DNA from: Brevundimonas sp. NIBR11
GTDB taxonomy: Bacteria > Pseudomonadota > Alphaproteobacteria > Caulobacterales > Caulobacteraceae
Reading direction: 5' to 3'
NCBI RefSeq assembly: GCF_027912535.1
Contig: NZ_CP115465.1
Location: forward strand, 479,001-543,000
Length of the DNA: 64,000 bases
Position 1 is the stretch's first letter; every line of letters starts with the position of its first letter. The notes under the pieces were generated by a model that did not search any database, was not told the origin of the DNA, and saw nothing but the letters and a program-made list of their open reading frames with translations. This document shows positions 25,183-39,192 of the stretch, piece after piece. Made by a program: the position numbers and the translations under genes.

Positions 25183-25227
25183 AAGGTTCGGCCAAAGCCA
25201 TCAACGGCTTGCCGAATTCGACCTTTT
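25183..25227 (+). terminator. Probable terminator after the hybrid kinase
   Basis: An imperfect stem pairs AAGGTTCGGC (from 25183) with GCCGAATTCGACCTT (to 25225), with an inner AAGCC/GGCTT helix around ATCAAC, and ends CCTTTT. It separates the kinase from the GTA cluster. Confidence 0.45.
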
Positions 25228-25431
25228 GAATCAATGGTCGGCTTTATTTAGAGCCCTTATCCGCGCCTTGTGACGCTGATCCCATATAGTTTGGGCATGA
25301 GGGGAAATGGGGACGAGACGGGGCCGACCCGGCGGTCGCCGCTCCCGACTCACACCGCGAGAGCCGATGCCGAACCGGGCCGATGAGCCTGGCGTCGGAG
25401 CGATTCGGTCATCCAATCAAAGGAGAGCGAC

Positions 25432-25719
25432 ATGCCCGCCATGCCCGAACGGGACGGCTTCGCCTATCATGCCCGGACGCCGGGAGACCCCGCGCGGCGC
25501 TGTGCGGCGGTGACGCCGGACGATAGCGCCGACCTGACGACCTATGCCAAGGGGCTCTACGTGGGACAGGCGGGGGACGTTCGCCTGATCCCCACCGGCG
25601 GCGGCGACAGCGAGGCGGTGACGTTCAAGGCGCATCCGATCGGTTATCTGCCGGTTCAGGCACGCCGGATTTTGTCGACGGGCACCACGGCCGCCTATCT
25701 GCTGGCCCTGTTCGATTGA
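25432..25719 (+). CDS. Spike base protein, RCAP_rcc01079 family
   Basis: A 95-residue protein with the family pattern CAAVTPDDSADLTTYAKGLY, VGQAGDVRLIP and a final VQARRILSTGTTAAYLLALF. From memory this is the family of R. capsulatus rcc01079, a GTA head-spike component. In Rhodobacter the spike genes lie apart from the main GTA cluster; here the gene heads the cluster. ATG 25432 has AGGAG 6-10 nt upstream. The stop overlaps the next start (TGATG), so the two are coupled. Confidence 0.75.
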   Translation: MPAMPERDGFAYHARTPGDPARRCAAVTPDDSADLTTYAKGLYVGQAGDVRLIPTGGGDSEAVTFKAHPIGYLPVQARRILSTGTTAAYLLALFD

Positions 25720-26525
25720 TGCCCGTCCTGAGCCATGTGAGCCTTGCGCCGCCGGGGCTGATCGCATCGGTTCCGTGGACCCCGGCGGTGCTCGGCGGCT
25801 CGGTGGTCGGTTGGTGGGACGCGCTTGACGCCGCCACGTTCACGCTGAACGGCGAGAATGTGGCGGCCTGGGCGAATAAGGGGGCGGCCGGTGGCGCAGC
25901 AGTGCAAACCACGGGCGCGAACCAGCCCGCCTACAGCGCGTCTGCACGAAACGGGCGGCCTGGCGTCGTCGCCGGATCCGGCGGCAAGAAGCTGAGCTTC
26001 ACCACCGTCGTCCCGGGCCTGCCCACGGGAAACGCCGCCTCGACGCTGGCGGTGGTGGGCGTGGATACGAGCGGTGGAGGCAATGCCTACCTTTTCGGCT
26101 ATGGAACCGCCGCGACGGGCCAGATGAGAACGCTGGTCACCGCGCCACCCAATGTCGTACTCGCGCATTTCGGAGCGGCGAACGACACGTCTTCGGTTCT
26201 GTCGTGGACCCATCTCGATCGTATCGTGGTCGCGGACGTCGGGGCGGGCGTCAACCCTACGTCGAACTTGGTCGTCGATGGGGGAGGGCCCCAGAGCAAG
26301 ACCATCACGACGTTGAACACGACGACGGCGGGAGGTTTCATCTTCGCCCGTCCCAGCGGTTCGGGCGGCGAATGGCTGGGGGTCGTGCAGGAGATCCTAG
26401 TCTTCAACCGCGTGCTGACGACGACAGAGCGCCGCAAGCTGGAGGGCTATCTGGCGTGGCGCTGGAGCGTGGTCGCCAACCTGCCGTCCGGTCATCCCTA
26501 CAAGTCGAGCGCGCCCTATGTCTGA
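25719..26525 (+). CDS. Probable GTA head-spike/fibre protein, LamG-like
   Basis: A 268-residue protein. The central and C-terminal parts look like a concanavalin/LamG jelly roll (VGWWDALDAATFTLNGENVAAW, then GVVQEILVFNRVLTTTERRKLEGYLAWRW). Such folds bind sugars and occur on phage spikes. Coupled to the spike base gene upstream (TGATG) and overlapping the next ORF by 8 nt, it is probably the receptor- or capsule-binding spike (GhsB-like in role). The assignment of role comes from context, not sequence identity. Confidence 0.65.
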   Translation: MPVLSHVSLAPPGLIASVPWTPAVLGGSVVGWWDALDAATFTLNGENVAAWANKGAAGGAAVQTTGANQPAYSASARNGRPGVVAGSGGKKLSFTTVVPGLPTGNAASTLAVVGVDTSGGGNAYLFGYGTAATGQMRTLVTAPPNVVLAHFGAANDTSSVLSWTHLDRIVVADVGAGVNPTSNLVVDGGGPQSKTITTLNTTTAGGFIFARPSGSGGEWLGVVQEILVFNRVLTTTERRKLEGYLAWRWSVVANLPSGHPYKSSAPYV

Positions 26526-26775
26526 GTGGATTTTCGAGAGCCTCGAGAGAGCACAGGCAGCGGCGGATGCGTGTGCCACCGCGCTGCCGGACGATGTCCT
26601 GCTGATGGGCGGCGCTGCGCCGATGCAGGTCACGGAGTGCTGGGCCGAACCCCTTGCGATCGGAGATGGGCGCTGGATGTTCCTGGCGATGCCGGGCCAG
26701 GCCACGCCAGCCGACGCGATCGAGGTCGCGGACGATTTGGGGAGAGCCCTTCGATCCTCGGCAAACCCAGATTGA
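26518..26775 (+). CDS. Small hypothetical protein of the spike operon
   Basis: An 85-residue acidic, soluble ORF overlapping the spike gene by 8 nt. Sequence pattern (SEWIFESLERAQAAADACA, GDGRWMFLAMPGQATPADAIE) suggests a small alpha/beta domain; no family recognised. Gene order places it with the two spike genes, so it may be a spike accessory or chaperone. About 160 nt of structured leader separates it from the portal gene. Confidence 0.6.
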   Translation: MSEWIFESLERAQAAADACATALPDDVLLMGGAAPMQVTECWAEPLAIGDGRWMFLAMPGQATPADAIEVADDLGRALRSSANPD

Positions 26776-26938
26776 CGAATTGAGATCGACCTAACCTGTG
26801 ATTGCGTCGGTGTCTGACCCCCCGCGCGGCGCCGCCGGAGGCTCTTCGAGACACCGATCGCTGCCCGCCGTACCCGGCCGCCGGACGGGCGGACGACCCT
26901 TGCCGGCCGACAGGCCGGCGATTTCCCTGGAGTCCGAT
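26776..26938 (+). other. Structured gap before the portal gene
   Basis: This is where terminase would be expected, but no terminase fragment is visible. It contains 9-bp arms TCGGTGTCT (26807-26815) and AGACACCGA (26849-26857), and a tight hairpin GCCGGCC-GACA-GGCCGGC at 26902-26919, 9 nt before the CTGGAG ribosome site of the portal gene. Confidence 0.5.
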
Positions 26939-28099
26939 ATGGAATTTTGGCCCATGCGGCGACGGGCGCGCCGAGCCGATGCGCTGCCCGAAACCAAGTC
27001 CAGTCGCGCGGGGCCGCTGATCGCCCTGACTGGTTCGGGACGGGCCCGCTGGACGCCGCGCGACTACGCCAGTTTGGCGATCGAGGGGTTCGGCAAAAAC
27101 GCCGTGGCCTATCGCTGCGTGCGGATGATCGCCGAGGCCGCCGCATCGGCGCCGCTGATCGTGTTCGTCGAGCAGATGCGAGACGACGAGCATCCGGCTG
27201 CGCGACTGCTGAGAAAGCCGAACCCGGAACAGTCGGGGTCGGAGTGGTTGGAGGGCCTCTACGGCGCCTTGCAGACGTCGGGCAACGCCTATGTCGAGGC
27301 GGTCGGCGAAGAGACGCCGGGCGAGTTGTGGAGCCTGAGACCGGATCGGGTGCGGATCGTGCCGGGGGCGGCTGGCTGGCCCGAGGCGTATGAATATGCG
27401 GTCGGCGGACGGTCGGTGCGCATCGCGCGGGAGGCGGACGGCTGGATGCCGGTGATGCAGCTGAAGTTGTTTCATCCTACGGACGATCACTATGGGTTCT
27501 CGCCTCTGGAGGCGGCCGCCTTCGCGATCGATGTGCACAACAGTTCCGGGGCATGGAACAAGGCGCTGCTGGATAATGCGGCCCGGCCGTCCGGGGCGCT
27601 GGTCTATTCGTCGAAGGATGGGGAGCGGCTGAGCGACGCACAGTTCGCGGTGCTGAAGGCGGAACTGGGCGAGGCGCACCAGGGGGCGGCGAACGCCGGG
27701 CGGCCGCTGGTGCTGGAGGGCGGGCTGGATTGGAAGCCGATGTCGATGACGCCGGCGGACATGGACTTCATCGCCGGCAAGCACGCAGCGGCGCGGGAAA
27801 TCGCCCTGGCGTTCGGGGTTCCGCCCCAGCTGCTGGGCATTCCGGGGGACGCGACCTACGCCAACTACCGCGAGGCCAATGCGGCTTTCTGGCGGGGAAC
27901 GGTGATCCCGTTGGCGCGAAAGACGGCGGGCGCCCTGACCGGATGGCTGGGCGGGCGGTTCGAGGGCATTCGGGTCGAGCCTGATCTCGACGCCGTTCCG
28001 GCGCTGCAGCCCGAGCGAGACGCGCTGTGGGCGAGACTGTCGGCGGCGAACTTCCTGACCGACGAGGAGCGGCGGCGGATGGCAGGGGTCGGCGCGTGA
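26939..28099 (+). CDS. GTA portal protein (gp3, HK97 family)
   Basis: A 386-residue portal that forms the dodecameric ring through which DNA enters and leaves the head. Family blocks: NAVAYRCVRMIAEAAASAPL, LLRKPNPEQSGSEWLEGLYG, TSGNAYVEAV, FHPTDDHYGFSPLEAA and FGVPPQLLGIPGDATYANYREA. ATG 26939 has CTGGAG upstream; the frame is open earlier but overlaps the hairpin region. It starts a long run of overlapping GTA genes; its stop overlaps the next ATG by one base. Confidence 0.93.
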   Translation: MEFWPMRRRARRADALPETKSSRAGPLIALTGSGRARWTPRDYASLAIEGFGKNAVAYRCVRMIAEAAASAPLIVFVEQMRDDEHPAARLLRKPNPEQSGSEWLEGLYGALQTSGNAYVEAVGEETPGELWSLRPDRVRIVPGAAGWPEAYEYAVGGRSVRIAREADGWMPVMQLKLFHPTDDHYGFSPLEAAAFAIDVHNSSGAWNKALLDNAARPSGALVYSSKDGERLSDAQFAVLKAELGEAHQGAANAGRPLVLEGGLDWKPMSMTPADMDFIAGKHAAAREIALAFGVPPQLLGIPGDATYANYREANAAFWRGTVIPLARKTAGALTGWLGGRFEGIRVEPDLDAVPALQPERDALWARLSAANFLTDEERRRMAGVGA

Positions 28100-28326
28100 T
28101 GGATGATGTGAAGAAGACGGCGACGGCGCTGGGGGTGGCGCTTCTGCTCCAAACTGTCGGCGGTCTGGTCTGGGCCGGCGGCGCGGCGGCGCGGATCGCG
28201 ACGCTGGAGGAACGGGTCGGCGAGCAGAGACTGGTGGCCGAACGGCTGGCGCGGTTGGAGGAGCAGGGCGTGGCGACGCGGGCGGCGTTGGCCCGGGTCG
28301 AGAACCGTCTGGAGGAGATGCGATGA
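28099..28326 (+). CDS. Small GTA protein, gp3.5-like
   Basis: A 75-residue protein with one hydrophobic segment (about 9-28) followed by a coiled coil (LEERVGEQRLVAERLARLEEQG). It sits between portal and protease, as gp3.5 does in RcGTA, overlapping both (TGATG and ATGA). Function unknown; it may be a membrane-anchored or assembly factor. Confidence 0.7.
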   Translation: MDDVKKTATALGVALLLQTVGGLVWAGGAAARIATLEERVGEQRLVAERLARLEEQGVATRAALARVENRLEEMR

Positions 28327-28802
28327 GGGGCGAGGGTCAAGAGCCGAGGGTCGAGGAAGGCAGTGGGGTGGAGGTTTCGACCCTCGACCCTCGGCCATCG
28401 ACCCTATCCATCCACGGCTATGCCTCACTTTGGGGCGTGGCGGACCTGAACGGCGATGTGCTCTCCAGGGGCGCGTTCGCCGACAGTCTGAAGCAAAGGG
28501 GGGCGAGCGGCGTGCGAATGCTGCACCAGCATGAGAGCCGCGCTGTCGTCGGGGTCTGGGACGAGATCGTCGAGGACGACCAGGGCCTGTTCGTGCGCGG
28601 CCGGATCGCCGACTGGTCTGCGGAGGCGCGCTATGCCCAAGCGCTGAGCCGAGCGGGGGCGCTGGACGGCCTTTCGATCGGCTTTCGCGCCGCGAAGGCG
28701 AGGCGGGAAGGGCGGCTGAGGGTGCTGAGCGGCGTGGAACTCTGGGAGGTGTCGTTGGTGACATTCCCGATGTTGCCGGGGGCGCGGTTCAGAACGACCT
28801 GA
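28323..28802 (+). CDS. GTA prohead protease (gp4, HK97 family)
   Basis: A 159-residue serine protease that cleaves the capsid delta domain during maturation. The catalytic region is visible: His in MLHQHESRAVVG (68 or 70) and Ser118 in DGLSIGFRA. The first ~28 residues are a low-complexity insertion encoded by a 12-bp inverted repeat (28344-28394). The start overlaps the stop of the gp3.5-like gene (ATGA). The core begins at LSIHGYASLWGVADLNGDV. Confidence 0.9.
   Translation: MRGEGQEPRVEEGSGVEVSTLDPRPSTLSIHGYASLWGVADLNGDVLSRGAFADSLKQRGASGVRMLHQHESRAVVGVWDEIVEDDQGLFVRGRIADWSAEARYAQALSRAGALDGLSIGFRAAKARREGRLRVLSGVELWEVSLVTFPMLPGARFRTT
28344..28394. repeat. 12-bp inverted repeat within the protease N-terminus
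   Basis: CCGAGGGTCGAG (28344-28355) and CTCGACCCTCGG (28383-28394) are perfect inverted arms, built from a GAGGGTC/GACCCTC heptamer that also occurs at 28331. It encodes the non-conserved DPRPSTL stretch. It looks like a short repetitive insertion inside a gene. Confidence 0.6.
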
Positions 28803-28894: not shown

Positions 28895-30124
28895 ATGATG
28901 AAAGAGACCAAACAGGCTTCCGCCTCGCCGGAAGCGCGCGCCGCCATGCACGAGATGATGGCGGCGTTCGAGGCGTTCAAAGGGGCCAACGACGCCCGGC
29001 TGAGCGAGATCGAGAAGAAGGCCTCGGCTGACACGTTGCTGGAGGAGAAGGTGGCGCGCATCGACCAGGCGGTCGGCGCGGCCCAAGCCCGGCTGGATCG
29101 GGCCATGTCGGAGGCGCGCCGTCCGATCATAGGCGGTGAGCCCACCATCGCGGCATCGGCGCCCGAGGCCAAGGCGGCGTTTGAAGGTTACGTGCGGACC
29201 GGACGCGAGCTGGGGCTGGAGATCAAGGCCGGGCTGTCGTCGGCGTCGAGTTCGGGCGGCTATGTCGTGCCGCCGGAGACCGAGCGGGCCATCGAGCGAC
29301 GCCTGATGGCGACCAGTCCGATGCGCGAGATCGCCACGGTCCGGACGGTGGCGTCGGGTGTCTTCAGGAAACCCGTATCGACGGCGGGCATCGCTTCTGG
29401 CTGGGTGGCCGAGACGGCCGCGCGTCCGGAGACGGATCCGGCGACCCTGGCCCTGCTGGAGTTTCCGGCGGCCGATCTCTACGCCAATCCGGCGGCGACG
29501 CAGACCCTGCTGGACGACGCCCTGGTCGATCTGGACGAGTGGCTGGCGAGCGAGGTCGAGGATGCTTTCGCCGCGCAGGAGACGACGGCCTTCGTCACCG
29601 GCGACGGCGTCAATAAGCCCAAGGGCTTCCTCGGCTATTCGATCGTGGCGGATGCGAGCCATGCCTGGGGCGACATCGGCTACGTGTCGTCGGGAGCGGC
29701 GGGCGCGTTCGCGGCGTCCAGCCCGGCCGACAAGCTCATCGATTTGATCTATGCGCCCAAGGCCCAGTTCCGGCCGAACGGACGGTTCGTAATGAACCGA
29801 AAGACGGTCTCGGCCGTACGCAAGTTCAAGGATTCGGACGGCAACTACATCTGGACGCCGGCGACGCGGCCGGGCGAGACGGCAAGCCTGCTGGGCTATC
29901 CGGTGACCGAGATCGAGACGATGCCGGACATCGCCGCGAACAGTCACGCCATCGCGTTCGGCGACTTCCAGCGGGGCTATCTGATCGTAGATCGCGCGGG
30001 CGTGCGGGTGCTGAGGGACCCGTATTCGGCCAAGCCCTATGTGCTGTTCTACACGACCAAGCGGGTGGGCGGCGGCATCCAGAATTTCGACGCCATCAAG
30101 GTGATGAAGTTCAGCGCGAGCTGA
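28895..30124 (+). CDS. GTA major capsid protein (gp5, HK97 fold)
   Basis: A 409-residue HK97-type capsid protein. Residues 1-100 are a charged coiled-coil delta domain expected to be removed by gp4. The mature part has SSASSSGGYVVPPETERAIE, the E-loop and A-domain segments GVNKPKGFLGY, RPNGRFVMNRKTVSAVRKF and GYLIVDRAGVRVLRDPYS. GGAG precedes the double ATG. Hairpins lie on both sides (28842-28871, 30132-30161), and it is the one gene in the cluster not overlapping its neighbours. Confidence 0.93.
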   Translation: MMKETKQASASPEARAAMHEMMAAFEAFKGANDARLSEIEKKASADTLLEEKVARIDQAVGAAQARLDRAMSEARRPIIGGEPTIAASAPEAKAAFEGYVRTGRELGLEIKAGLSSASSSGGYVVPPETERAIERRLMATSPMREIATVRTVASGVFRKPVSTAGIASGWVAETAARPETDPATLALLEFPAADLYANPAATQTLLDDALVDLDEWLASEVEDAFAAQETTAFVTGDGVNKPKGFLGYSIVADASHAWGDIGYVSSGAAGAFAASSPADKLIDLIYAPKAQFRPNGRFVMNRKTVSAVRKFKDSDGNYIWTPATRPGETASLLGYPVTEIETMPDIAANSHAIAFGDFQRGYLIVDRAGVRVLRDPYSAKPYVLFYTTKRVGGGIQNFDAIKVMKFSAS

Positions 30125-30161: not shown

Positions 30162-30547
30162 TCGGACGGCGCCGCGCCTGAAGCGCCCCGTCCGAACATC
30201 TGGGCGCCCGCGATGTCGGCCGGGGCAGCCGATCGCTGTCGCTTGCTTCAGCGCCGCGACGCACGGCGCTACCGACTGACGTCATGGGCCTGGCGGCGAA
30301 TGCAGGACCGCTGCCCATGTGGTCGCGCTCCTCCGGAGCCTGCGCACCCGAGAAGTCCATGTTCGAGAGGCTCGCCTCGTCTCCAGCGACCTCGTCCATG
30401 GTTGTTCCGCGAGAGGCCTGAGGCGGCGGGAGGGCGCGTGCCGGCGTGATCTGCGGGGCGGCGCCGAAGGCGGCGGCGATCAAAAACGCGAGCATCCGAC
30501 AATCGCCTTCGACGGACGATTGGACCTCAAACGATGGAGAATTTGAA
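30162..30547. other. Non-coding gap between capsid and head-tail connector
   Basis: Nearly 390 nt without a convincing gene inside an otherwise overlapping operon. Frames on both strands are Arg-rich and of unrecognised type. The last 20 nt hold the ATGGAG ribosome site of the next gene. The gap may hold an internal promoter or remnants of a lost gene. Confidence 0.5.
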
Positions 30548-30814
30548 ATGACCGCACCCGTGAGCCTCACGGAGGCGAAGCTGTTCCTGCGCGTTGAACA
30601 CGAGGCGGAGGACGCGCTGATCCAGACGCTGATCGACGCCGCCAAGGCGCGGGTCGAGGGAGAGGCGGGCCTGAGCCTGACCTCGACGTCGCCCGCGCCG
30701 CTGCGGTTGGCGGTGCTCATGCTGGCGCTGCGTGCCTATGAGCGAGGCGAGGTCGAGATGCCGATCCGGCCGATCGAGGCTTGGATCGCACCGTATCGGG
30801 TGGTGCGCCTGTGA
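30548..30814 (+). CDS. GTA head-tail connector (gp6-like), short
   Basis: An 88-residue helical protein of the phage gp6/HK97 connector type (VSLTEAKLFLRVEHEAEDALIQTLIDAA). It attaches below the portal. As I recall it, gp6 of RcGTA is about twice this length, so this is a compact version closer to phage HK97 gp6. The C-terminal part retains AYERGEVEMP. Its stop overlaps the next start (GTGA). Confidence 0.8.
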   Translation: MTAPVSLTEAKLFLRVEHEAEDALIQTLIDAAKARVEGEAGLSLTSTSPAPLRLAVLMLALRAYERGEVEMPIRPIEAWIAPYRVVRL

Positions 30815-31113
30815 GGATGCTCGCTGAACTGCTCGAGCCCGTCGAGGCGGAGACTCCCTATGGCGGGCGGGTCGTCAGCTACGAGTCTTTGGGGATCGTG
30901 TGGTTAAGGATCGACGCACAGCGACGGCGTGAGCGCACCGAGGCCGGGATCACGTCGGCAGTCGATGTGACGACGGCCGAAACGCGGGCCGATCCCCGCC
31001 TGAGCGAGGGCCGAATGGTCCGGTTCGGCGGCGGAGACTGGGTGATCGCGAGCTTGAACGGCGATCCGGATCGGCCCGGACGCATCTTTCTGAATATCGA
31101 GAGGACGCGATGA
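30811..31113 (+). CDS. GTA head-tail adaptor (gp7)
   Basis: A 100-residue beta-rich head closure/adaptor protein. Family pattern: LLEPVEAETPYGGRVVSYES, VWLRIDAQRRRE and a final GDWVIASLNGDPDRPGRIFLN. GTG 30811 gives the GTGA overlap with gp6; ATG 30817 is the alternative. Its stop overlaps gp8 (ATGA). Confidence 0.82.
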   Translation: MRMLAELLEPVEAETPYGGRVVSYESLGIVWLRIDAQRRRERTEAGITSAVDVTTAETRADPRLSEGRMVRFGGGDWVIASLNGDPDRPGRIFLNIERTR

Positions 31114-31517
31114 GCGGACATGACACGGCGCTCCAGAAGGCGCTGATCGCGCATCTGCGAGCGGACACGGCGCTGCAGGCGCTGCTGGGCGATCCGGCGC
31201 GGATTTGGGACCAGGCCCCGCGGGGGGCGGGCTATCCGCATCTCCTGATCGGGCGGTCGGAGACCAAACCGGTCGAGGCGGACGGATGCGGGGTCGAGCA
31301 TGCGCTGACCCTCCGCTGTTCTTCCCGGTTCGAGGGGACGCAAGAGGCCAAGGCGATCTGCGCGGCCGTACGGACAGCGGTTCACGAGGCGGTGCTGGAG
31401 GCGGACGGGGTCCGCACCGTGTCGCTGCGGGCGACCTACACCGACGTGTTCCGCTCCAGCGATCACAGACGGGTCTGGGGCGTGATCCGCGTCCGGGCCG
31501 TCACCGAAGACTTCTGA
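31110..31517 (+). CDS. GTA tail terminator-like protein (gp8, DUF3168)
   Basis: A 135-residue DUF3168 protein. Visible features: ALQKALIAHLRADTALQALLG, PHLLIGRSETKP, EGTQEAKAICAAVRTAVHEA and a beta-rich end. It corresponds to gp8, placed between head adaptor and tail tube. Coupled to gp7 by ATGA; 13 nt before gp9. Confidence 0.85.
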   Translation: MSGHDTALQKALIAHLRADTALQALLGDPARIWDQAPRGAGYPHLLIGRSETKPVEADGCGVEHALTLRCSSRFEGTQEAKAICAAVRTAVHEAVLEADGVRTVSLRATYTDVFRSSDHRRVWGVIRVRAVTEDF

Positions 31518-31530
31518 GGGGAGACAGGAC

Positions 31531-31941
31531 ATGGCCGCACAGCGCGGGAAGGACATTCTGCTGAAGATCGAGAGTGGGCCCGGCGTGTTCACGACGGTCG
31601 CCGGCCTGAGGGCGCGAACGATCTCGCTGAACGCGAAGACGGTCGAAGCGACGGACGCCGACAGCGCCGGGCGCTGGCGGGAGTTGCTGGGCGGGGCGGG
31701 GGTGAAGTCGGCGGCGGTGTCAGGTCAGGGCATCTTTCGCGACGCGGCGTCGGACGCCGTGATCCGCGAGGCCTTTTTCGACCAGGCGCTGAAGACCTGG
31801 CGATTGATCGTGCCTGACTTCGGGGTGCTGGAAGGTCCTTTCCTGGTCTCGGCTCTGGAGTACGCCGGCGACCACGAAGGCGAGGCGACGTTCGCGATCA
31901 GCCTGGCCAGCGGAGGCGCGGTGGCGTTCAGCGCAGTATGA
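31531..31941 (+). CDS. GTA major tail (tube) protein (gp9)
   Basis: A 136-residue tail tube subunit of the TP901-1/gp9 type: MAAQRGKDILLKIESGPG, TVAGLRARTISLNAKTVEATDADS, WRELLGGAGVKSAAVSGQGIF and VSALEYAGDHEGEATFAISL. It stacks in rings around the tape measure. GGAGACAGGAC precedes ATG 31531. Its stop overlaps gp10 (ATGA). Confidence 0.9.
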   Translation: MAAQRGKDILLKIESGPGVFTTVAGLRARTISLNAKTVEATDADSAGRWRELLGGAGVKSAAVSGQGIFRDAASDAVIREAFFDQALKTWRLIVPDFGVLEGPFLVSALEYAGDHEGEATFAISLASGGAVAFSAV

Positions 31942-32237
31942 CCGGCGCCAACGGCGTCCGTGGCGAGGCCGTGATCGTGCTGGCCGGGGCGGAACGGAGG
32001 TTGTGTCTGACTCTGGGCGCGCTGGCGGAGATCGAAACGGCTCTGGGCGTGTCCGGCGTCGATGCCTTGGCTGAGCGGATGCGGGCCTTATCGGCGCAAG
32101 ACCTGATGGCGGTGCTGGCGGCGCTGCTGCGGGGCGGAGGCGAGCCAGCGCTGGCGGGCGGACTGACCGAAGCGGCGATCAACCCGATCGAAGCCGCCGA
32201 CGCGGTGGCCATCGCGTTCAGGGCTGCCGGTGGGTGA
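31938..32237 (+). CDS. GTA tail assembly chaperone-like protein (gp10)
   Basis: A 99-residue GTA-family gp10 protein: GEAVIVLAGAERRLCLTLGALAEIETALG, then a helical C-terminus. It resembles the tail assembly chaperones placed just before the tape measure in siphophages. It overlaps the following small gene by 8 nt, and that gene is in the +1 frame. Confidence 0.85.
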   Translation: MTGANGVRGEAVIVLAGAERRLCLTLGALAEIETALGVSGVDALAERMRALSAQDLMAVLAALLRGGGEPALAGGLTEAAINPIEAADAVAIAFRAAGG

Positions 32238-32421
32238 GGCGACGCCTTGGGCGGCGATGCTCCGGCTGGGCGCGTCCTTGGGCCTGACGCCGAACGCGTT
32301 CTGGCGGCTGTCCTTGTCGGAATGGCGGATGCTGACGGAAGTCACACCGGCAGGCGTGCCTTTGGCGCGCGGTGAGTTCGAGCACTTGATGGCGACATGG
32401 CCGGATGGAGAGATGCGATGA
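32230..32421 (+). CDS. Small phage tail assembly chaperone (gp10.1, rcc01693-like)
   Basis: A 63-residue protein with PWAAMLRLGASLGLTPNAFW and SLSEWRMLTEV, the signature of the rcc01693/DUF2376 family found between gp10 and the tape measure. Start GTG 32230; it overlaps gp10 by 8 nt and the tape measure by 4 (ATGA). It could work as a second chaperone subunit, equivalent to the GT product made by frameshifting in phages. Confidence 0.82.
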   Translation: MGEATPWAAMLRLGASLGLTPNAFWRLSLSEWRMLTEVTPAGVPLARGEFEHLMATWPDGEMR

Positions 32422-32951
32422 GCGATGATTATCGGCCGGACGCGCTGGATGCAGTGCCCGCACGGGCTGCCGAAGCGGCGGCGGCGATGGAGGCGCTGAG
32501 GGATCCGGCGGAACGCGCGGCGGCCTCCATCGAGGAGGCGTTCGGGCGGGCGGGAGCCAGTCTGACACGCTCATTGGCTCGGGCTGCAGCGGACGGCGAA
32601 GTCAGCCTAGCCGAGCTGGCGCGGGCTGTCCTGGGCGCAGTCGGTGCGGGGCTGGGCGGATCGGGCGGCGGTCTGGGAGCGGCGATCGCGCAGGCGGTCG
32701 CCGGCGTCGTCGGTTTCGGAGGCGCGCGCGCCGACGGCGGCGCCGTCCTGGGCGGCGGGGCTTATCTGGTCGGAGAACGGGGGCCGGAGATGTTTCGACC
32801 GCATGGCTCCGGCGTGATCGAGAGCGCGGGAGGCCCCGGCGTGACCGTGAATGTCACCGTCGACGGCGGGGCGCCGGCGCTGCTGAGGTCCGAGGCGCAG
32901 ATCGCCCAGTTGCTGGCCCGGGCCGCCGCGCTGGGGGCGCGACGGCTGTAG
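32418..32951 (+). CDS. GTA tape measure protein (gp11), short
   Basis: A 177-residue tape measure, short as is usual for GTA tails. N-terminal helices (AEAAAAMEALRDPAERAAASIEEAF in parts), a Gly/Ala-rich hydrophobic stretch (LGGSGGGLGAAIAQAVAGVV) and the conserved end GAYLVGERGPEMFRPHGSG. ATG 32418 overlaps the preceding stop (ATGA). It is the last plus-strand gene before an opposite-strand insertion. Confidence 0.85.
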   Translation: MSDDYRPDALDAVPARAAEAAAAMEALRDPAERAAASIEEAFGRAGASLTRSLARAAADGEVSLAELARAVLGAVGAGLGGSGGGLGAAIAQAVAGVVGFGGARADGGAVLGGGAYLVGERGPEMFRPHGSGVIESAGGPGVTVNVTVDGGAPALLRSEAQIAQLLARAAALGARRL

Positions 32952-32961
32952 GTCGAATGGC

Positions 32962-33648
32962 TTATTCGCCCTTGGGATTGGCGCCGAAGCGGTTGTCGCC
33001 ACGCTGGCTTTCGGAGATGCCGATCCAGAGAAGGAAACCGAGTTGCAGCAGGCAGATGATGCCCAGGATGCCGAGCGAAGGGCCGATCAGGGCCATGATG
33101 GCCGCCGGGTCCTCGTTTTCGATGGCGGTGTAGTTGGTCATGAGGGCCGCCCCGACGGACACGAATATCGCGACCAGAGCGACCATCCCCGCGACAAATG
33201 GGATGGCGGCGAGCCAGCCTGTCTGACCCATGTCGTGCAGGCGCTTCACCGTGATGGCGAGATTGGGCCAGATCAACGCGAGCGACACTAGAGGGCCCAG
33301 AAACGGAATCCAGCCCGCGACGACGCCGATGCCAAGGCAGATCAGCCAGCCAATCCAGAAGTGCGACCGGCGCATCCGGCCCTGGAAAGAAAAAAGAGCG
33401 GTCTTGAAGTCGAAACCGTCGACGGGGACGCCGGGGGTCGGCGACGGTGCGGGGGGAGCGGGGGCCGCGGCCAGCAGCATGATGTTTGTGGCCTCTCCGG
33501 CGACTGGCACGAAATCGACGCGCAGGCCCGCCGAGACAGCGGCGGGCGGAGACACCGCTTCGCGGCCAAAGGTATAGCGGATGCCGTCGTCGCCGGAGAT
33601 GAGACCGGCGCCGGAGGCGTCGTCGAAGCTGAGAATCTGACCGCGCAT
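32962..33648 (-). CDS. DUF805 membrane protein with N-terminal cold-shock-like domain
   Basis: A 228-residue protein on the strand opposite to the GTA genes. Residues 1-65 resemble a cold-shock/OB domain (MRGQILSFDDASGAGLISGDDGI in parts, VDFVPV). After a Pro-rich linker come four or so membrane helices of DUF805 (FSFQGRMRRSHFWIGW, LHDMGQTGW). Start ATG 33648 begins the OB domain. It lies between gp11 and gp12, with only 10 nt to gp11, so it interrupts the conserved tail order. Function unknown; not a known GTA component. Confidence 0.8.
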   Translation of the reverse strand: MRGQILSFDDASGAGLISGDDGIRYTFGREAVSPPAAVSAGLRVDFVPVAGEATNIMLLAAAPAPPAPSPTPGVPVDGFDFKTALFSFQGRMRRSHFWIGWLICLGIGVVAGWIPFLGPLVSLALIWPNLAITVKRLHDMGQTGWLAAIPFVAGMVALVAIFVSVGAALMTNYTAIENEDPAAIMALIGPSLGILGIICLLQLGFLLWIGISESQRGDNRFGANPKGE

Positions 33649-33748
33649 TGAGACTGGGGCTCCCCGTGTCGACGACCAGGGAGCGGCCGCCTTCGGCGCG
33701 AGACTGGACGAGCGGTGCTCGCCCGACAAGTGAAACAGGAGTGACGGC

Positions 33749-34366
33749 ATGGCCTTTCACGAGGTGCGCCTGCCTGCGCGGCTGGCGTTCGGATCGACGG
33801 GCGGGGTGGAGCGACGTACCGATGTCGTCACCCTCGCATCCGGATATGAGCGGCGATCAACGCCTTGGGCGATGGGGCGCAGGCGCTATCTGATCGGGTC
33901 AAACCTGAGATCGCTCGCTGATATGGCGGAACTGACCGCATTTTTTGAGGCGCGGCGTGGGCGGCTATATGGGTTCCGTTTCAAGGACTTCGCCGATTTC
34001 GCGTCCTGCGAACCGGGCGGGACGCCCACGGCTGCGGATCAGATTCTCGGTGTCGGCGGCGGGGGACGGACCACATTTCCACTGACGAAGGCCTATGGCG
34101 ATCTCAAGCGGCCGATTCGAAAGCCCGTCGAGGGGTCGGTGTCCGTGGCCATCGGGGGCGTGGAACTGGCCGCCGAAGCTTACTCGGTTGATGTGACGAT
34201 GGGACTGGTGGTTCTGGATTCGGCGCCAGGCGCCGGCGTGACCGTGACGGCCGGCTTTCAGTTCGACACACCGGTCCGGTTCGACGCGGACCGACTGGAG
34301 GTGACCCTGGAAACCTTCGGCGCGGGCCGGATGGCGGCGATCCCGCTGATCGAGGTCCGGGTCTGA
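33749..34366 (+). CDS. GTA distal tail protein (gp12, DUF2460)
   Basis: A 205-residue DUF2460 protein: MAFHEVRLPARLAFGSTGG, GRRRYLIGSNLRSLADMAEL, FFEARRGRLYGFRFKDFADF and the ending RMAAIPLIEVRV. It forms the ring joining tail tube and baseplate. CAGGAG precedes ATG 33749. One base separates it from gp13. Confidence 0.93.
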   Translation: MAFHEVRLPARLAFGSTGGVERRTDVVTLASGYERRSTPWAMGRRRYLIGSNLRSLADMAELTAFFEARRGRLYGFRFKDFADFASCEPGGTPTAADQILGVGGGGRTTFPLTKAYGDLKRPIRKPVEGSVSVAIGGVELAAEAYSVDVTMGLVVLDSAPGAGVTVTAGFQFDTPVRFDADRLEVTLETFGAGRMAAIPLIEVRV

Positions 34367-34367
34367 G

Positions 34368-35012
34368 ATGCGTGACATTCCAGAGGAAATGGCCGCCCGC
34401 ATCGAGAGCGGGGCGGCGATGCTCAGCCACGTGTGGATCGTGGACCGTGAGGAGGGCGACCCGCTCGGCTTCACCGATCACGATCGGGACCTGAGCATCG
34501 ACGGCGTCTCGTGCCGGGCTGCGAGCGGGTGGACGCAGGGCGTGGCTGACGCGGCCGAGGGACTGGCCCCGGGAAGTCTGGCGATCACCGGGGTGCTGGA
34601 TGACGAGCGGATCGTCGAGACCGATATGACGGCAGGCTTGTGGGACGAGGCGAAGGTCTCCCTATGGCGTGTGGACTGGGAGCGGCCTGACCTGAAGGTC
34701 CTTCTGTACCGCGGGACGCTGAGCCGGATTCGCCGCGAGGGTAATAGCTTCACCGCCGAGATCGAAGGGCCGCTAGCGGCGCTGGAGCGGATCGTTGGGC
34801 GGACGTTCGGGCGTAGCTGCGACGCGGTGCTGGGCGATGCGCGCTGCGGCGTGGATCCGGCCGGGCGCAGTTGCGACAAGCGTTGGGAGACCTGTGTCGG
34901 GACCTTTCTGAACGGTATAAACTTCCAGGGATTTCCGGACATCCCGGGAGATGACTTCCTGACCGCCTATCCGGCGACAGGGGGCCTGCATGATGGCGGG
35001 AGCCGCCGGTGA
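34368..35012 (+). CDS. GTA baseplate protein gp13 (DUF2163), apparently shortened
   Basis: A 214-residue DUF2163 protein. The N-terminal domain is normal (WIVDREEGDPLGFTDHDRDL, GWTQGVADAAEGLAPG). The C-terminal signature is also present (CDKRWETCVGTFLNGINFQG, FPDIPGDDF). Family members are typically near 290 residues; here CGVD at 160-163 passes directly to CDKRW at 169. The ~65-residue beta segment normally between them is missing while the frame is kept. Cys pairs remain. Overlaps gp14 (GTGA). Confidence 0.88.
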   Translation: MRDIPEEMAARIESGAAMLSHVWIVDREEGDPLGFTDHDRDLSIDGVSCRAASGWTQGVADAAEGLAPGSLAITGVLDDERIVETDMTAGLWDEAKVSLWRVDWERPDLKVLLYRGTLSRIRREGNSFTAEIEGPLAALERIVGRTFGRSCDAVLGDARCGVDPAGRSCDKRWETCVGTFLNGINFQGFPDIPGDDFLTAYPATGGLHDGGSRR

Positions 35013-35461
35013 GCGCGGTCGTGGTCGCGGCGCGCGCCTGGCTGGGTACGCCCTACCAGCATCAGGCCAGTGTGAAAGGCCAAGGCGCGGATTGTCTTGG
35101 CCTGGTGCGCGGGGTCTGGCGAGAGACGGTGGGTGGCGAGCCGGAGCAGACGCCGGCCTATCAGCCTGACTGGGCCGAGGTGGGTGGTGACGAAGCCCTG
35201 CTCGAGGCTGCGCAGCGGTGGCTGATCGAGAAGCCGGTCGCGGAAATGGCGCCCGGCGACGTGCTTCTGTTTCGGATGGTCCAGGGGGCTCCGGTGAAAC
35301 ACTGCGCGATCCTGAGCGACGTGGGCGGTCCGGAGACGAGGATGATCCACGCCTACTGGGGCCGGGCGGTGGTCGAGAGCTGGATGGGACCCTGGTGGCA
35401 ACGGCGGCTGGCGGCGGTCTTCGCCTGGCCGGCGCCAGGCTTGGCTGAGGAGGGGAATTGA
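35009..35461 (+). CDS. GTA cell-wall peptidase (gp14, NlpC/P60)
   Basis: A 150-residue NlpC/P60 endopeptidase: WLGTPYQHQASVKGQGADCLG with catalytic Cys29, and VKHCAIL with catalytic His98. It presumably cuts peptidoglycan during DNA delivery. GTG 35009 overlaps the gp13 stop; its own stop overlaps the gp15 ATG by one base. Confidence 0.93.
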   Translation: MSAVVVAARAWLGTPYQHQASVKGQGADCLGLVRGVWRETVGGEPEQTPAYQPDWAEVGGDEALLEAAQRWLIEKPVAEMAPGDVLLFRMVQGAPVKHCAILSDVGGPETRMIHAYWGRAVVESWMGPWWQRRLAAVFAWPAPGLAEEGN

Positions 35462-38400
35462 TGGCGCAGGTGGTTCTGGGCGGTGTCGGGGGCTTGATCG
35501 GCGGCGGTGCGGGTCGCGCCGTCGGCGCGGCTCTGGGCGGCTTGGCGGATCGGGGTCTGATCGACGCTCTGTCGCCGGCGCGGCAACGAGGCCCTCGCCT
35601 CGAGACCTTGAAGGTCCAGTCGACGGCGGAAGGTGCGCCGATGTCCTGCGTGTTCGGCCGGGCGCGCCTGGCCGGGCAAATGATCTGGGCGGCGCGATTC
35701 CTGGAGCGGCGCAACGAAAGCGGAGGCGGCAAGGGCGGCCCACGCAGCGTGGACTATGCCTATTCCCTGAGCTTCGCGGTCGCCCTCTGCGAGGGGCCGA
35801 TCGACGGGATCGGTCGCATCTGGGCCGACGGGCGGCTGATGGACCAGACGGGTGTGGCGATGCGCGTCTATCGCGGCACGGCGGATCAGACGCCTGACCC
35901 CCTGATCGAGGCCGTGGAAGGGGCAGCTCCAGCCTATCGTGGGACGGCCTATGTCGTCCTCGAGGATCTGCCGCTTGATGCGTTCGGGGATCGGGCGCCG
36001 CAGCTGAGTTTCGAGGTGTTCCGCCGGCCGCCTGGCCATGGGCTGGAGGAGATGCTGGAGGGCGTCTGTCTCATTCCGGGCGCGGGCGAGTTCGTGCTGG
36101 CGACAGAGCCAGTGATGCGCCGCGACGGTCTCACGAGGACGACGGTCGAGAATGGACGTCTAGGCAATGGTCGGACCGATCTGACCGTCTCGCTGGATCA
36201 ACTCGAAGCGCATTGTCCGAACCTGAAACGGGTCAGTCTGGTGGTCGGCTGGTTCGGCGATGACTTGCGAGCCGGCCATTGTCACGTGAAGCCTGGCGTC
36301 GAACGACAGGACAAGTTGACCGAGCCACTCGTGTGGTCCGTCGCGGGCCTCTCTCGGGACGACGCCCATTTGATCTCAGAGGTCGATGGACGCCCCGCTT
36401 ATGGGGGCACGCCCTCCGACGACAGCGTGAGACAGGCCGTGGCGGCCTTGAGGGCACGGGGCTGGGCCGTAACTCTCTATCCCTTCGTGTTCATGGACAT
36501 CGCGGCCGACAACGACCTGCCCGATCCGTATGGCGGTGAGCGGCAGGCGGCCTATCCGTGGCGCGGGCGCATCAAGGGTGAGGACGGGCCGGATGCGACG
36601 GAGGAAGTCGCGGCGATGTTCGGAGGCGCGGAGGAATGGGGGCTGCGTCGGCTGGCGCTGCACTATGCGGCGCTGGCGGTCGAGACAGGCTGCGACGGGT
36701 TGCTGATCGGGTCCGAGATGCGGGGACTGACCTGGACCAGGGACGAGGCCGGCGGCTATCCGGCGGTCGATCAGTATCAGACGCTGGCTGCAGAGTGCCG
36801 CTTGGTCGTCGGTCCGGACGTGGCCCTGTCCTACGCGGCGGACTGGTCGGAATACGCGAACCATCGGCCCGGCGATGGGGCAGGCGATGTGGTCTTCCAT
36901 CTGGATCCGCTGTGGGCGCACGAGGCGATCACCTATGTCGGGATCGACTGGTACCCGCCCTTGGGCGATTGGCGAGGCGGCGAAGGCGGGATCGACGCCG
37001 CCCTTTTCGCCGGGCCTGACGATCCTGCCTATCTGGTCGCTCAGATCGCCGGCGGCGAGTGCTTCGATTGGTACTATGCGAGTGACGCGGATCGGGAGAC
37101 GCAGACGCGCACGCCGATCATCGACACCGCGCATGGAGAGGATTGGATCTTTCGAGCCAAGGACCTGAAGGCATGGTGGTCCAGCGCGCACCACAATCGA
37201 CGGGGCGGGGTTCGCGACACGGCGCCGACCGCGTGGATCCCCGAGATGAAGCCGATGCGGCTCACCGAGTTCGGCTGCGCGGCGGTGGATCGGGGCGGCA
37301 ATGCACCGAACCTGTTCCCGGATCCCAAGTCGTCCGAGAGCCACCTGCCGCCATTTTCAACCGGCAGCCGTGACGATCGGATGCAAAGACGAGCGCTGGA
37401 AGCGGTGCTGGGCCATTTCGCCGAGCCCGCCAACAATCCCGTATCGACGGTCTACGGTCTGCCGATGATCACTGGCGCTGATGTCTGGTGCTGGGATGCT
37501 AGGCCTTATCCGGCCTTTCCCGCACTCAAAACGGTCTGGGCCGATGCCGGAGCCTGGCGCACAGGTCATTGGCTAAACGGGCGAGTCGGCGGCGGAACCA
37601 GGCGCATGCTCGCCGCCATTCTGAGGCGCGGAGGACTGAGCGAAGCCGACTTCCTGGTCGCCGAGCCATCGGGTGCGGTGGAAGGCTATGTCATCGATCG
37701 GCCGATGCGTACGCGTGACGCATTGGAACCGTTGTTGCAGGTCTTTGGCATGACGGCGGCGGAACGCGGCGGGATCGTGAATCTTCTCGGCGCGGAGGCC
37801 GAAGCGCACTCCCTGGCGATAGACGCGCTCGCGGTCAGGAATGACGGACCTGGCCTGACGCAGACGCGCACGCTGTCCGAAGGGTTGAGCGCCGTGAGGG
37901 TCCGCCATATCGACGAGGGTGCGGACTATCAGACCGGCGCCGTGGTGGTCCGCAGCCAAACCATTGGGAATGGAGGCAGCCTCGACTTCGACCTGCCTGC
38001 GGTTTGCGGCGGGGACTTAGCGAAGGCTCTAGGGGCGCGGCTTCTGAGCGGCGAAGGCGCGGCTCGGCTGAGCGTGGCCCTGGGACCGCTGGCGACTCTT
38101 TCGTTCGAGCCGGGAGACGCAGTGGTGGTCGAGGGCCAACCGGGCGCGTGGCGCGTCGAGCGGTTGAGCGTGGACGAGCATCCGACGGCCTGGCTGGCTC
38201 CCCGGGTCGGCCCGATGTTTGTGTCCGAATCCGTGGTGTGGCGTCTGGGAGACTCCGTCGAGAGGCCCGGGACCCCGTTTGTAGAAATCCTTGATCTGCC
38301 GCCGCTTCCCGGCACGGAAAGCGACGACCGTCCGATCGCTGCAGCGGCGGTCGAGCCATGGCGTTCGATGAGCATTCATATCGGCGAGACAAGCGACACT

Positions 38401-39192
38401 TTGACCCTGCGCGGTGTGGTCGCCGTTCCGGCGACGGTGGGAGAGTTGACGGCTCCTTTGCCGCCCGGGGTCCTGCATCGATGGGACGAAAGCAACTCCG
38501 TCCTGGTTCGGCTGGAGGGGCGTGTTCCGACATCGGCGAACGAGATGGCCGTACTGAGCGGTGCGAACCTGGCGGCGGTGCGGACGACGCTCGGATGGGA
38601 GATTCTGCAGTATCGGCATGCCGACCTGATCGGTGACGCGCTATGGCGATTGAGCGGACTTCTTAGGGGCCAGCAGGGAACCGAGACCGAAATGGCTCCG
38701 GGAGCGGCGACGGGGGCATTCGTCGTGCTGCTCGATGCCCGAATGGGTCGGTTCAAGACGGGGGTGCAGGAGCGCGGTCTGGAGCGAACGGTCAGGGTCG
38801 GTCCCGAAGGCCTGGCCCCGGGCGGATCCGGCTTCGCTCGGAAGACCTGGACCCCGCGAGGTTTGCATGGTCGTCCCTGGAGCCCGACGGGCTTGCACGC
38901 ATCCTCCAAGGAGGGGGGCGTGGGCGTCAGCTGGACGCCACGGGTACGGGTCGGCGGCGACGTCTGGGACATGGAGCCCGTCGCGGTCGATCCGTCGCGC
39001 TTCCGCGTCCGCGTGACCGATGGCGGGGTCGAGCGCAGGGTGTTCGAAGTGGAGGATGCCACGCTTCTCTACAGCGCTGACGATATGGCGGTCGACTTTC
39101 CGTCGGGCATGCACGCTGCCGAGATCCATGTGGCGCAGTTCGGGGCGGCCTTTGGCTGGGGCGTGGAAGCCTCGACGCGGTTGATCGCCTGA
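35461..39192 (+). CDS. GTA baseplate hub / host-specificity protein (gp15)
   Basis: A 1243-residue multidomain protein, close in size to gp15 of RcGTA. An N-terminal Gly-rich segment (VVLGGVGGLIGGGAGRAVGA) leads into a phage-tail hub region, then a GTA TIM-barrel (about 400-720: GLLIGSEMRGLTW, VGIDWYPPLGDWRGG, EFGCAAVDRGGNAPNLFPDP) resembling glycoside hydrolases, followed by phage-tail_3 type domains. ATG 35461 has GAGGAGGGG upstream. It is the last gene of the cluster. Confidence 0.92.
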   Translation: MAQVVLGGVGGLIGGGAGRAVGAALGGLADRGLIDALSPARQRGPRLETLKVQSTAEGAPMSCVFGRARLAGQMIWAARFLERRNESGGGKGGPRSVDYAYSLSFAVALCEGPIDGIGRIWADGRLMDQTGVAMRVYRGTADQTPDPLIEAVEGAAPAYRGTAYVVLEDLPLDAFGDRAPQLSFEVFRRPPGHGLEEMLEGVCLIPGAGEFVLATEPVMRRDGLTRTTVENGRLGNGRTDLTVSLDQLEAHCPNLKRVSLVVGWFGDDLRAGHCHVKPGVERQDKLTEPLVWSVAGLSRDDAHLISEVDGRPAYGGTPSDDSVRQAVAALRARGWAVTLYPFVFMDIAADNDLPDPYGGERQAAYPWRGRIKGEDGPDATEEVAAMFGGAEEWGLRRLALHYAALAVETGCDGLLIGSEMRGLTWTRDEAGGYPAVDQYQTLAAECRLVVGPDVALSYAADWSEYANHRPGDGAGDVVFHLDPLWAHEAITYVGIDWYPPLGDWRGGEGGIDAALFAGPDDPAYLVAQIAGGECFDWYYASDADRETQTRTPIIDTAHGEDWIFRAKDLKAWWSSAHHNRRGGVRDTAPTAWIPEMKPMRLTEFGCAAVDRGGNAPNLFPDPKSSESHLPPFSTGSRDDRMQRRALEAVLGHFAEPANNPVSTVYGLPMITGADVWCWDARPYPAFPALKTVWADAGAWRTGHWLNGRVGGGTRRMLAAILRRGGLSEADFLVAEPSGAVEGYVIDRPMRTRDALEPLLQVFGMTAAERGGIVNLLGAEAEAHSLAIDALAVRNDGPGLTQTRTLSEGLSAVRVRHIDEGADYQTGAVVVRSQTIGNGGSLDFDLPAVCGGDLAKALGARLLSGEGAARLSVALGPLATLSFEPGDAVVVEGQPGAWRVERLSVDEHPTAWLAPRVGPMFVSESVVWRLGDSVERPGTPFVEILDLPPLPGTESDDRPIAAAAVEPWRSMSIHIGETSDTLTLRGVVAVPATVGELTAPLPPGVLHRWDESNSVLVRLEGRVPTSANEMAVLSGANLAAVRTTLGWEILQYRHADLIGDALWRLSGLLRGQQGTETEMAPGAATGAFVVLLDARMGRFKTGVQERGLERTVRVGPEGLAPGGSGFARKTWTPRGLHGRPWSPTGLHASSKEGGVGVSWTPRVRVGGDVWDMEPVAVDPSRFRVRVTDGGVERRVFEVEDATLLYSADDMAVDFPSGMHAAEIHVAQFGAAFGWGVEASTRLIA

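Follow-up and report, generated by a model that had tools for sequence, protein, structure and literature searches.

The closest described relatives of the locus analysed here are the gene transfer agents (GTAs) of Rhodobacter capsulatus (RcGTA) and Caulobacter crescentus (CcGTA). According to PMC6854486, RcGTA has its large terminase (TerL) in the core cluster and its head spikes at ectopic loci. A peptide of the RcGTA head fibre docks on the spike base (PMC7296036). In C. crescentus, as reported in PMC9632790 and PMC11150451, the activator GafY binds 20 regions, 18 of them together with IHF, and GafZ binds the main cluster only. The GafY regions include the promoters of one tail-fibre gene and one homeodomain-related gene (PMC9632790). 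We analysed a 64-kb window (positions 479001-543000) of the single-contig genome of Brevundimonas sp. NIBR11 (G000; 3,166,259 bases, given as 100% complete). The window very probably carries an RcGTA-like structural operon whose packaging motor, a pair of terminase genes near groEL, is encoded elsewhere in the genome.

The structural genes were collinear from the portal to a GTA_TIM / Rcc01698-like protein and lay amid host genes (Table 1). As stated in a preliminary description of the window, portal, protease, capsid, connectors and tail genes followed each other in order. The same description had reported no terminase in the cluster, and 96 TerL queries indeed gave no convincing match in the window (best E 0.011), with none below 0.2 between 22 and 28.5 kb. 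The large terminase that heads RcGTA-like clusters was unlinked here. A terminase at the cluster head characterises the clusters described so far, but is not a functional criterion.

A profile search of the whole genome for Terminase_6N retrieved one gene. It forms a pair with a gene for a small terminase (TerS)-like protein at G000:C1:2971705-2973752 (TerL, 2972205-2973752; L002:9206-10753 in locus coordinates), ~0.70 Mb from the cluster, counted over the contig ends on the assumption of a circular chromosome. Searching the genome with this solo TerL protein to E 10 added only a C-terminal relic. The solo TerL had both terminase domains (PF03237, 1.7e-21; PF17289, 2.3e-18) and a Walker A motif; no relative was found among solved structures at the limits used. 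The TerS-like gene overlaps the start of TerL by 4 bp, and its 167-aa helix-turn-helix (HTH) product matched the small-terminase family phrog_1206 (2.7e-6). The neighbours were host-type genes: phosphoglucose isomerase, groEL-type Cpn60, a YfbK-type protein and an RTX protein.

GTA terminases are marked by a Cys, found in 99% of GTA-type and 4% of virus-like sequences, and by a Pro, found in 90% and none, respectively (PMC7947584, Esterman et al.). These are positions 292 and 282 of the RcGTA TerL, which itself has Ala at the latter. The solo TerL carried both residues (DPP...DACGI), as matched by motif and not by alignment to the RcGTA TerL, and the loop between them was longer than in linked TerLs. 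Of its 205 phage TerL matches, all were below 60% identity and the 15 best-ranked were 33-39% identical. The ratio of non-synonymous to synonymous substitutions (dN/dS) was 0.28-0.46 in 15 pairs (0.28-0.31 among G000, G115 and G034; 0.36-0.46 in the other 12). The solo TerL is under purifying selection.

Cluster and terminase had a promoter element in common. The stretches before the spike base gene and before the solo TerS aligned over ~110 bp with a score of 41, versus at most 17 in 300 shuffles and 21 at best elsewhere in the locus. A strict core pattern (up to 3 mismatches) had three sites in 3.17 Mb and none in the reversed control. They preceded the cluster, TerS and a tail-fibre/lysis-type operon (DUF2793 tail fibre, M15 peptidase and a small open reading frame, ORF). 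A longer 52-bp pattern of fixed spacing, built from five of its own sites, had 12 sites in the genome and again none in the reversed control. At the sequence level, separate loci under one promoter element, as in RcGTA-like systems, were therefore present. HTH ORFs resembling TerS stood behind four of the 12 sites (G000:C1:1212350, 2433061, 1100004 and 2422000), two of which were among the five used to build the pattern; three of these ORFs matched phrog_1206 weakly (0.0025, 2.8e-4 and 3.6e-7). No clear target gene was found behind the sites at 1021178, 1929337 and 2324730. By eye, the last of these precedes an apparent homogentisate dioxygenase gene. A further regulon-like site was seen at 2592391.

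A gafYZ-like activator pair was located at G000:C1:477031-478106 on the minus strand, ~0.9 kb to the left of the window. One ORF matched DUF6456 (E 1.8e-41), the annotation that GafA relatives carry (PMC9638019), and the overlapping ORF was DnaA-HTH-like (1.3e-5, below the cut-off). No regulon element was seen by eye just before the pair. The core sequence GCGCCTTGTGACGCTG of the cluster promoter recurred exactly in three other split clusters (G115, G034 and G104), and was lacking from the solo terminase promoter. This stretch may act in GafZ loading. Because the terminase promoter lacks it, the solo terminase would be part of a GafY-type accessory set, outside the GafZ-type operon, with GafY as the presumed ligand of the shared element. 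In the mechanism that we propose, activators of the GafY/IHF type would switch on the cluster, the terminase operon, the tail-fibre operon and the accessory HTH genes via this one element. The solo TerS-TerL would then dock on the portal and load host DNA into the capsids by the headful mechanism. We infer that the solo TerL packages DNA into the particles of this cluster.

The preliminary description had offered two options, a lineage that split packaging from structure or a particle repurposed after loss of its terminase. A genome-wide search for a GTA-type TerL had been suggested as the check. The profile and protein searches retrieved one intact gene, unlinked and with the promoter element of the cluster. 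This supports the split and lends no support to a repurposed particle without terminase.

The layout was compared among 121 genomes of the same genus, a sample whose closest named relatives in a separate collection were mostly Brevundimonas. Portal was found in 110 genomes and a TerL match in at least 112. TerL was linked to the cluster in 77 of the 110 portal genomes and not linked in 33; the first count had been 76 and 34, and G028 was moved to the linked class by a weaker, partial TerL. Its linked TerL matches (G028:C1:565000-575000) covered the N-terminal part only, with no unlinked TerL among the matches listed; this gene is possibly decaying. Of the 33 genomes, 22 were classed as split. 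The other 11 (G007, G026, G035, G040, G042, G045, G055, G085, G099, G100 and G119), near contig ends or outside the first examination, were left unclassed. G100, with 6.1 kb upstream free of TerL and an unlinked TerL, was left out of the test. From the 77 linked clusters 63 were fetched, and 62 entered the portal tree.

The gene-order comparison proposed in the preliminary description showed that the split layout recurs. An unlinked TerL was present in 22 of 22 split and in at least 17 of 62 linked genomes of the tree set (Fisher 5e-10); for G103 and G017 it was known from the search table only. Linkage needs about 10 changes on the portal tree. A search of the 22 split spacers for a decayed linked TerL gave scattered best matches of E 0.02-0.1, and such a remnant was rejected. 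One DNA match of 35 points in G032, considered as a TerL trace, was dropped, as it fell within the TerL coding region.

A TerL tree was calculated by a quick method with midpoint rooting, on 124 rows after leaving out six short ones of 130. All but one (G042) of the 47 unlinked rows formed a single clade, with a support of 91 in the Shimodaira-Hasegawa-like approximate likelihood ratio test (SH-aLRT). Three groups, each supported by 99, made up this clade: groEL-site (15 rows), ksgA-site (7 rows) and mixed (24 rows). G050 and G053 were assigned to the groEL-site group by sequence, their stretches ending at contig ends without groEL. The chromosomal sites of unlinked TerLs fell into four or more kinds, namely near groEL, near ksgA, near an HI0933-like oxidoreductase gene and near pccA; the last three are names that we presume from reading the sequences, not database matches. 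In the mixed group, the oxidoreductase gene was found in 11 loci and the pccA-like gene in three. TerLs adjoined the pccA-like gene in G098, G010 and G025. In G000, the C-terminal relic of 60 codons (911286-911465; 44% identity, E 2.3e-7) also adjoins a pccA-like gene, and the regulon site at 911245-911296 overlaps its upstream edge. It is the remnant of a second solo terminase. Five linked rows (G084, G015, G081, G106 and G025), together with G052 and G013, were closer to the unlinked clade than were the remaining 54 linked rows. A linked form may therefore have given rise to the unlinked family.

The exact promoter motif had matches in 3 of 121 genomes and the longer pattern in 6, of which the single matches in G019 and G081 look like chance. 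The exact motif was not recognisable across the genus, and promoters were therefore compared within genomes. With windows counted from the TerL start, we asked whether the stretch before the solo terminase ranked first. It did so in 7 of 15 groEL-site loci (chance ~4% each; binomial 5e-7, a rough value because the windows overlap). In G050 (27 versus 25) and G062 (28 versus 25) the margin was small. Negative results, which are real, were obtained for 8 of 15 groEL-site loci (G053 cut by a contig end), 12 of 14 group-B loci, 7 of 7 ksgA-site loci and 8 of 10 others. In G044, the sequence shared by cluster and terminase was unlike that of G000, yet scored 48 versus at most 18 in shuffles. Because this pair shares its own distinct sequence, the promoters of cluster and terminase appear to diverge together. 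At G092:C2:566376-567749, a groEL-site TerS-TerL was kept with a promoter that is G044-like by eye, and no GTA portal was found in that genome at E 1e-20.

Several results weigh against an unlinked motor serving this cluster. With correction for kinship, the association was no more than suggestive (median p 0.0625 over 9 independent pairs). Overall, 11 of 46 unlinked loci shared their promoter with the cluster, and the result was negative for G034, which is closely related and split. Since at least 17 of 62 genomes with a linked cluster contain an unlinked TerL as well, the latter may have another role. The portal (dN/dS 0.13-0.26, 4 pairs) was more strongly constrained than the solo TerL and TerS (0.48-0.61 in 3 TerS pairs). 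The TerS call depends on weak profile matches and a modest model (predicted local distance difference test 70.5, predicted template modelling score 0.36). The solo gene was the only intact TerL found, but other terminase families were not searched in the genome. Finally, most linked TerLs fall outside the clade of the unlinked ones, and for this reason the split layout looks like a takeover by an old paralogue or xenologue and not like a simple relocation.

The solo TerS-TerL could also be a prophage remnant or mobile element, next to a GTA that has lost packaging and survives empty or repurposed. The XRE/IrrE-type and Beta_protein genes just before the pair would suit such an origin, as would the 45 of 62 linked clusters with no unlinked TerL among the matches listed. 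However, the nine ORFs scanned at the solo locus (TerS and TerL included) gave no capsid, portal or integrase match, and groEL was present in 15 of 51 unlinked-TerL loci from across the genus, with the same groEL site in relatives, which speaks against a mobile element. The GTA signature residues, the promoter common to the cluster and the low identity to phage terminases point the same way, and we consider this origin improbable. As a side observation, the two genes lie at L002:6070-8546, between groEL and the terminase; few related loci matched the XRE/IrrE gene and none the Beta_protein gene, and the stretch is possibly an insertion hot spot. That a linked TerL was lost from the sequence by misassembly is extremely unlikely. 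The genome is one contig with no second TerL but the 60-codon relic, the spacer had no TerL trace, and a linked TerL was also missing from G115, G034 and other assemblies, including the single-contig G109 and G110. The TerL that an assembly correction might have placed just outside the region, as the preliminary description had considered, is thus not expected.

A further possibility is that the solo terminase serves the GTA alongside other unlinked terminases or TerS-like proteins, as alternative loading systems. More than one GTA-type TerL (two or three) was found in several genomes, which would fit, as would the four further HTH ORFs that follow the element in G000; of these, three matched TerS profiles weakly. 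Against this, G000 has one intact TerL and the HTH ORFs may be regulators, and we regard alternative loading as rather unlikely. A wider reading, tentative and less likely than not, would make the GTA motor of the genus an exchangeable multi-locus module: an old terminase family at four or more kinds of site, repeatedly gained or lost, at least partly wired into the regulon with TerS-like HTH proteins, and repeatedly allowing loss of the cluster terminase. If so, alternative motors or initiators in one strain may set which DNA is packaged, how much and when.

A motor outside the operon means that a gene transfer particle can have one of its essential parts encoded at a great distance from the others. 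The element would be even less mobile as a whole, which takes domestication to an extreme, and the control of capsid making would be uncoupled from that of packaging. The roughly 10 changes of linkage in the genus allow natural comparisons that test for effects on packaging bias, DNA length and the survival of the host.

The first two genes of the cluster probably encode an ordinary head spike, a base and an exchangeable fibre, which normally lies between terminase and portal. The 95-aa base matched the RcGTA spike base Rcc01079 (phmmer, PDB 6tb9, E 2.2e-6) and phrog_12296 (1.5e-20). The 269-aa fibre matched the phage virion protein phrog_10356 (5.6e-21) and, weakly, Laminin_G_3 (6e-4, below the cut-off). 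Its 38 other relatives in the protein search were all without informative name, and none was found among solved structures at the limits used. By analogy with RcGTA, the LamG-type fibre likely docks on the base via its N-terminus. Judged from the sequences themselves, Leu/Gly-rich starts were present in several sister fibres and weaker in the LamG fibre of G000.

The preliminary description had seen the spikes as sitting in the place of the terminase, and as receptor-binding parts added by this lineage. Neither view held. Of 85 clusters, 25 had the spike base before the portal; 21 of these have a linked TerL and 4 are split. In 21 of the 63 linked-TerL clusters it stood between TerL and portal, both genes being kept; it was undetected before the portal in 18 of 22 split clusters. 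Since 21 of 63 linked and 4 of 22 split clusters carry the base, the proper place of spikes is behind the terminase position, and each feature varies without the other. Spikes linked to the cluster are widespread in the genus, and only the LamG fibre is special to G000, the one genome with it among the 85 clusters examined. In 12 genomes searched, five good base matches were all at the cluster, one poor match was elsewhere (G115, E 0.001) and six genomes had no match. The gene after the base differed greatly between genomes (23 of 25 clusters compared), which suggests a base that is retained and a fibre that is swapped, as in the case of the LamG fibre. That spike genes are unlinked in Rhodobacter, as the preliminary description also said, agrees with PMC6854486.

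The operon of base, LamG-like spike and 85-residue ORF was as described earlier, with successive overlaps of 4 bp and 8 bp. The 85-aa ORF had no detected relative at the same place in the 84 other clusters. Many portal relatives align only past residue ~45-60, and ATG at 26939 is a likelier portal start than the ORF start. A PAS/histidine kinase gene (22768-25176) flanks the cluster upstream, and DnaJ follows the GTA_TIM gene downstream. No integrase, replication or lysogeny genes were found among the ORFs scanned at the cluster (part of the window) and the solo locus.

Table 1 Features of the structural cluster, in window coordinates.
Feature	Position	Strand	Remarks
GTA regulon promoter element (CATCAACGG ... 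ATCAA ... CGGCTTTATTTAGAGCCCTTATCCGC, fixed spacing)	25199..25264	+	common to TerS-TerL operon
Cluster promoter core GCGCCTTGTGACGCTG and leader before first gene	25263..25431	+	
Spike base ORF, 95 aa	25432..25719	+	Rcc01079-type
LamG/ConA-like head fibre (spike) ORF, 269 aa	25716..26525	+	
85-aa ORF	26518..26775	+	no family match in Pfam or PHROGs
Portal ORF	26798..28099	+	PF04860 1.5e-86; Rcc01684 PDB 6tba 1.9e-121
Prohead protease (Peptidase_S78)	28323..28802	+	
Major capsid protein (Phage_capsid; HK97-type)	28895..30124	+	
Head-tail connectors, tail terminator, tail tube, GTA-gp10	30446..32237	+	
Tape-measure-like (weak match), DUF2460, baseplate hub (phiJL001-Gp84-like), NlpC/P60, GTA_TIM / Rcc01698-like	32397..39192	+	

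In the main texts of the open-access literature, as far as covered, unlinked spikes, fibres and regulators are known for GTAs; no unlinked large terminase was found there, and one would be new. The terminase survey in PMC7947584 grades terminases by how many GTA genes cluster with them, in 8-kb steps, so that a GTA terminase standing alone would rank as a 'small' element, a class taken as prophage-like. The agent of G000 resembles RcGTA in its homologous spike base (Rcc01079) and portal (Rcc01684), in the GTA_TIM / Rcc01698-like protein at the end and in having some parts at ectopic loci (PMC6854486). Unlike in RcGTA, the spikes are in the cluster and the large terminase is ectopic. With CcGTA it shares gafYZ-type activators (PMC11150451), and its regulon resembles that of CcGTA, which includes a tail fibre and a homeodomain-related gene (PMC9632790). 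CcGTA has gtaQS between terminase and portal (PMC11150451); in G000, unlike in CcGTA, the terminase is unlinked. The linked-TerL clusters of the genus have the same cluster from the portal onward, 21 of 63 with a spike base, but their TerL lies upstream of the portal and in most of them belongs to another clade.

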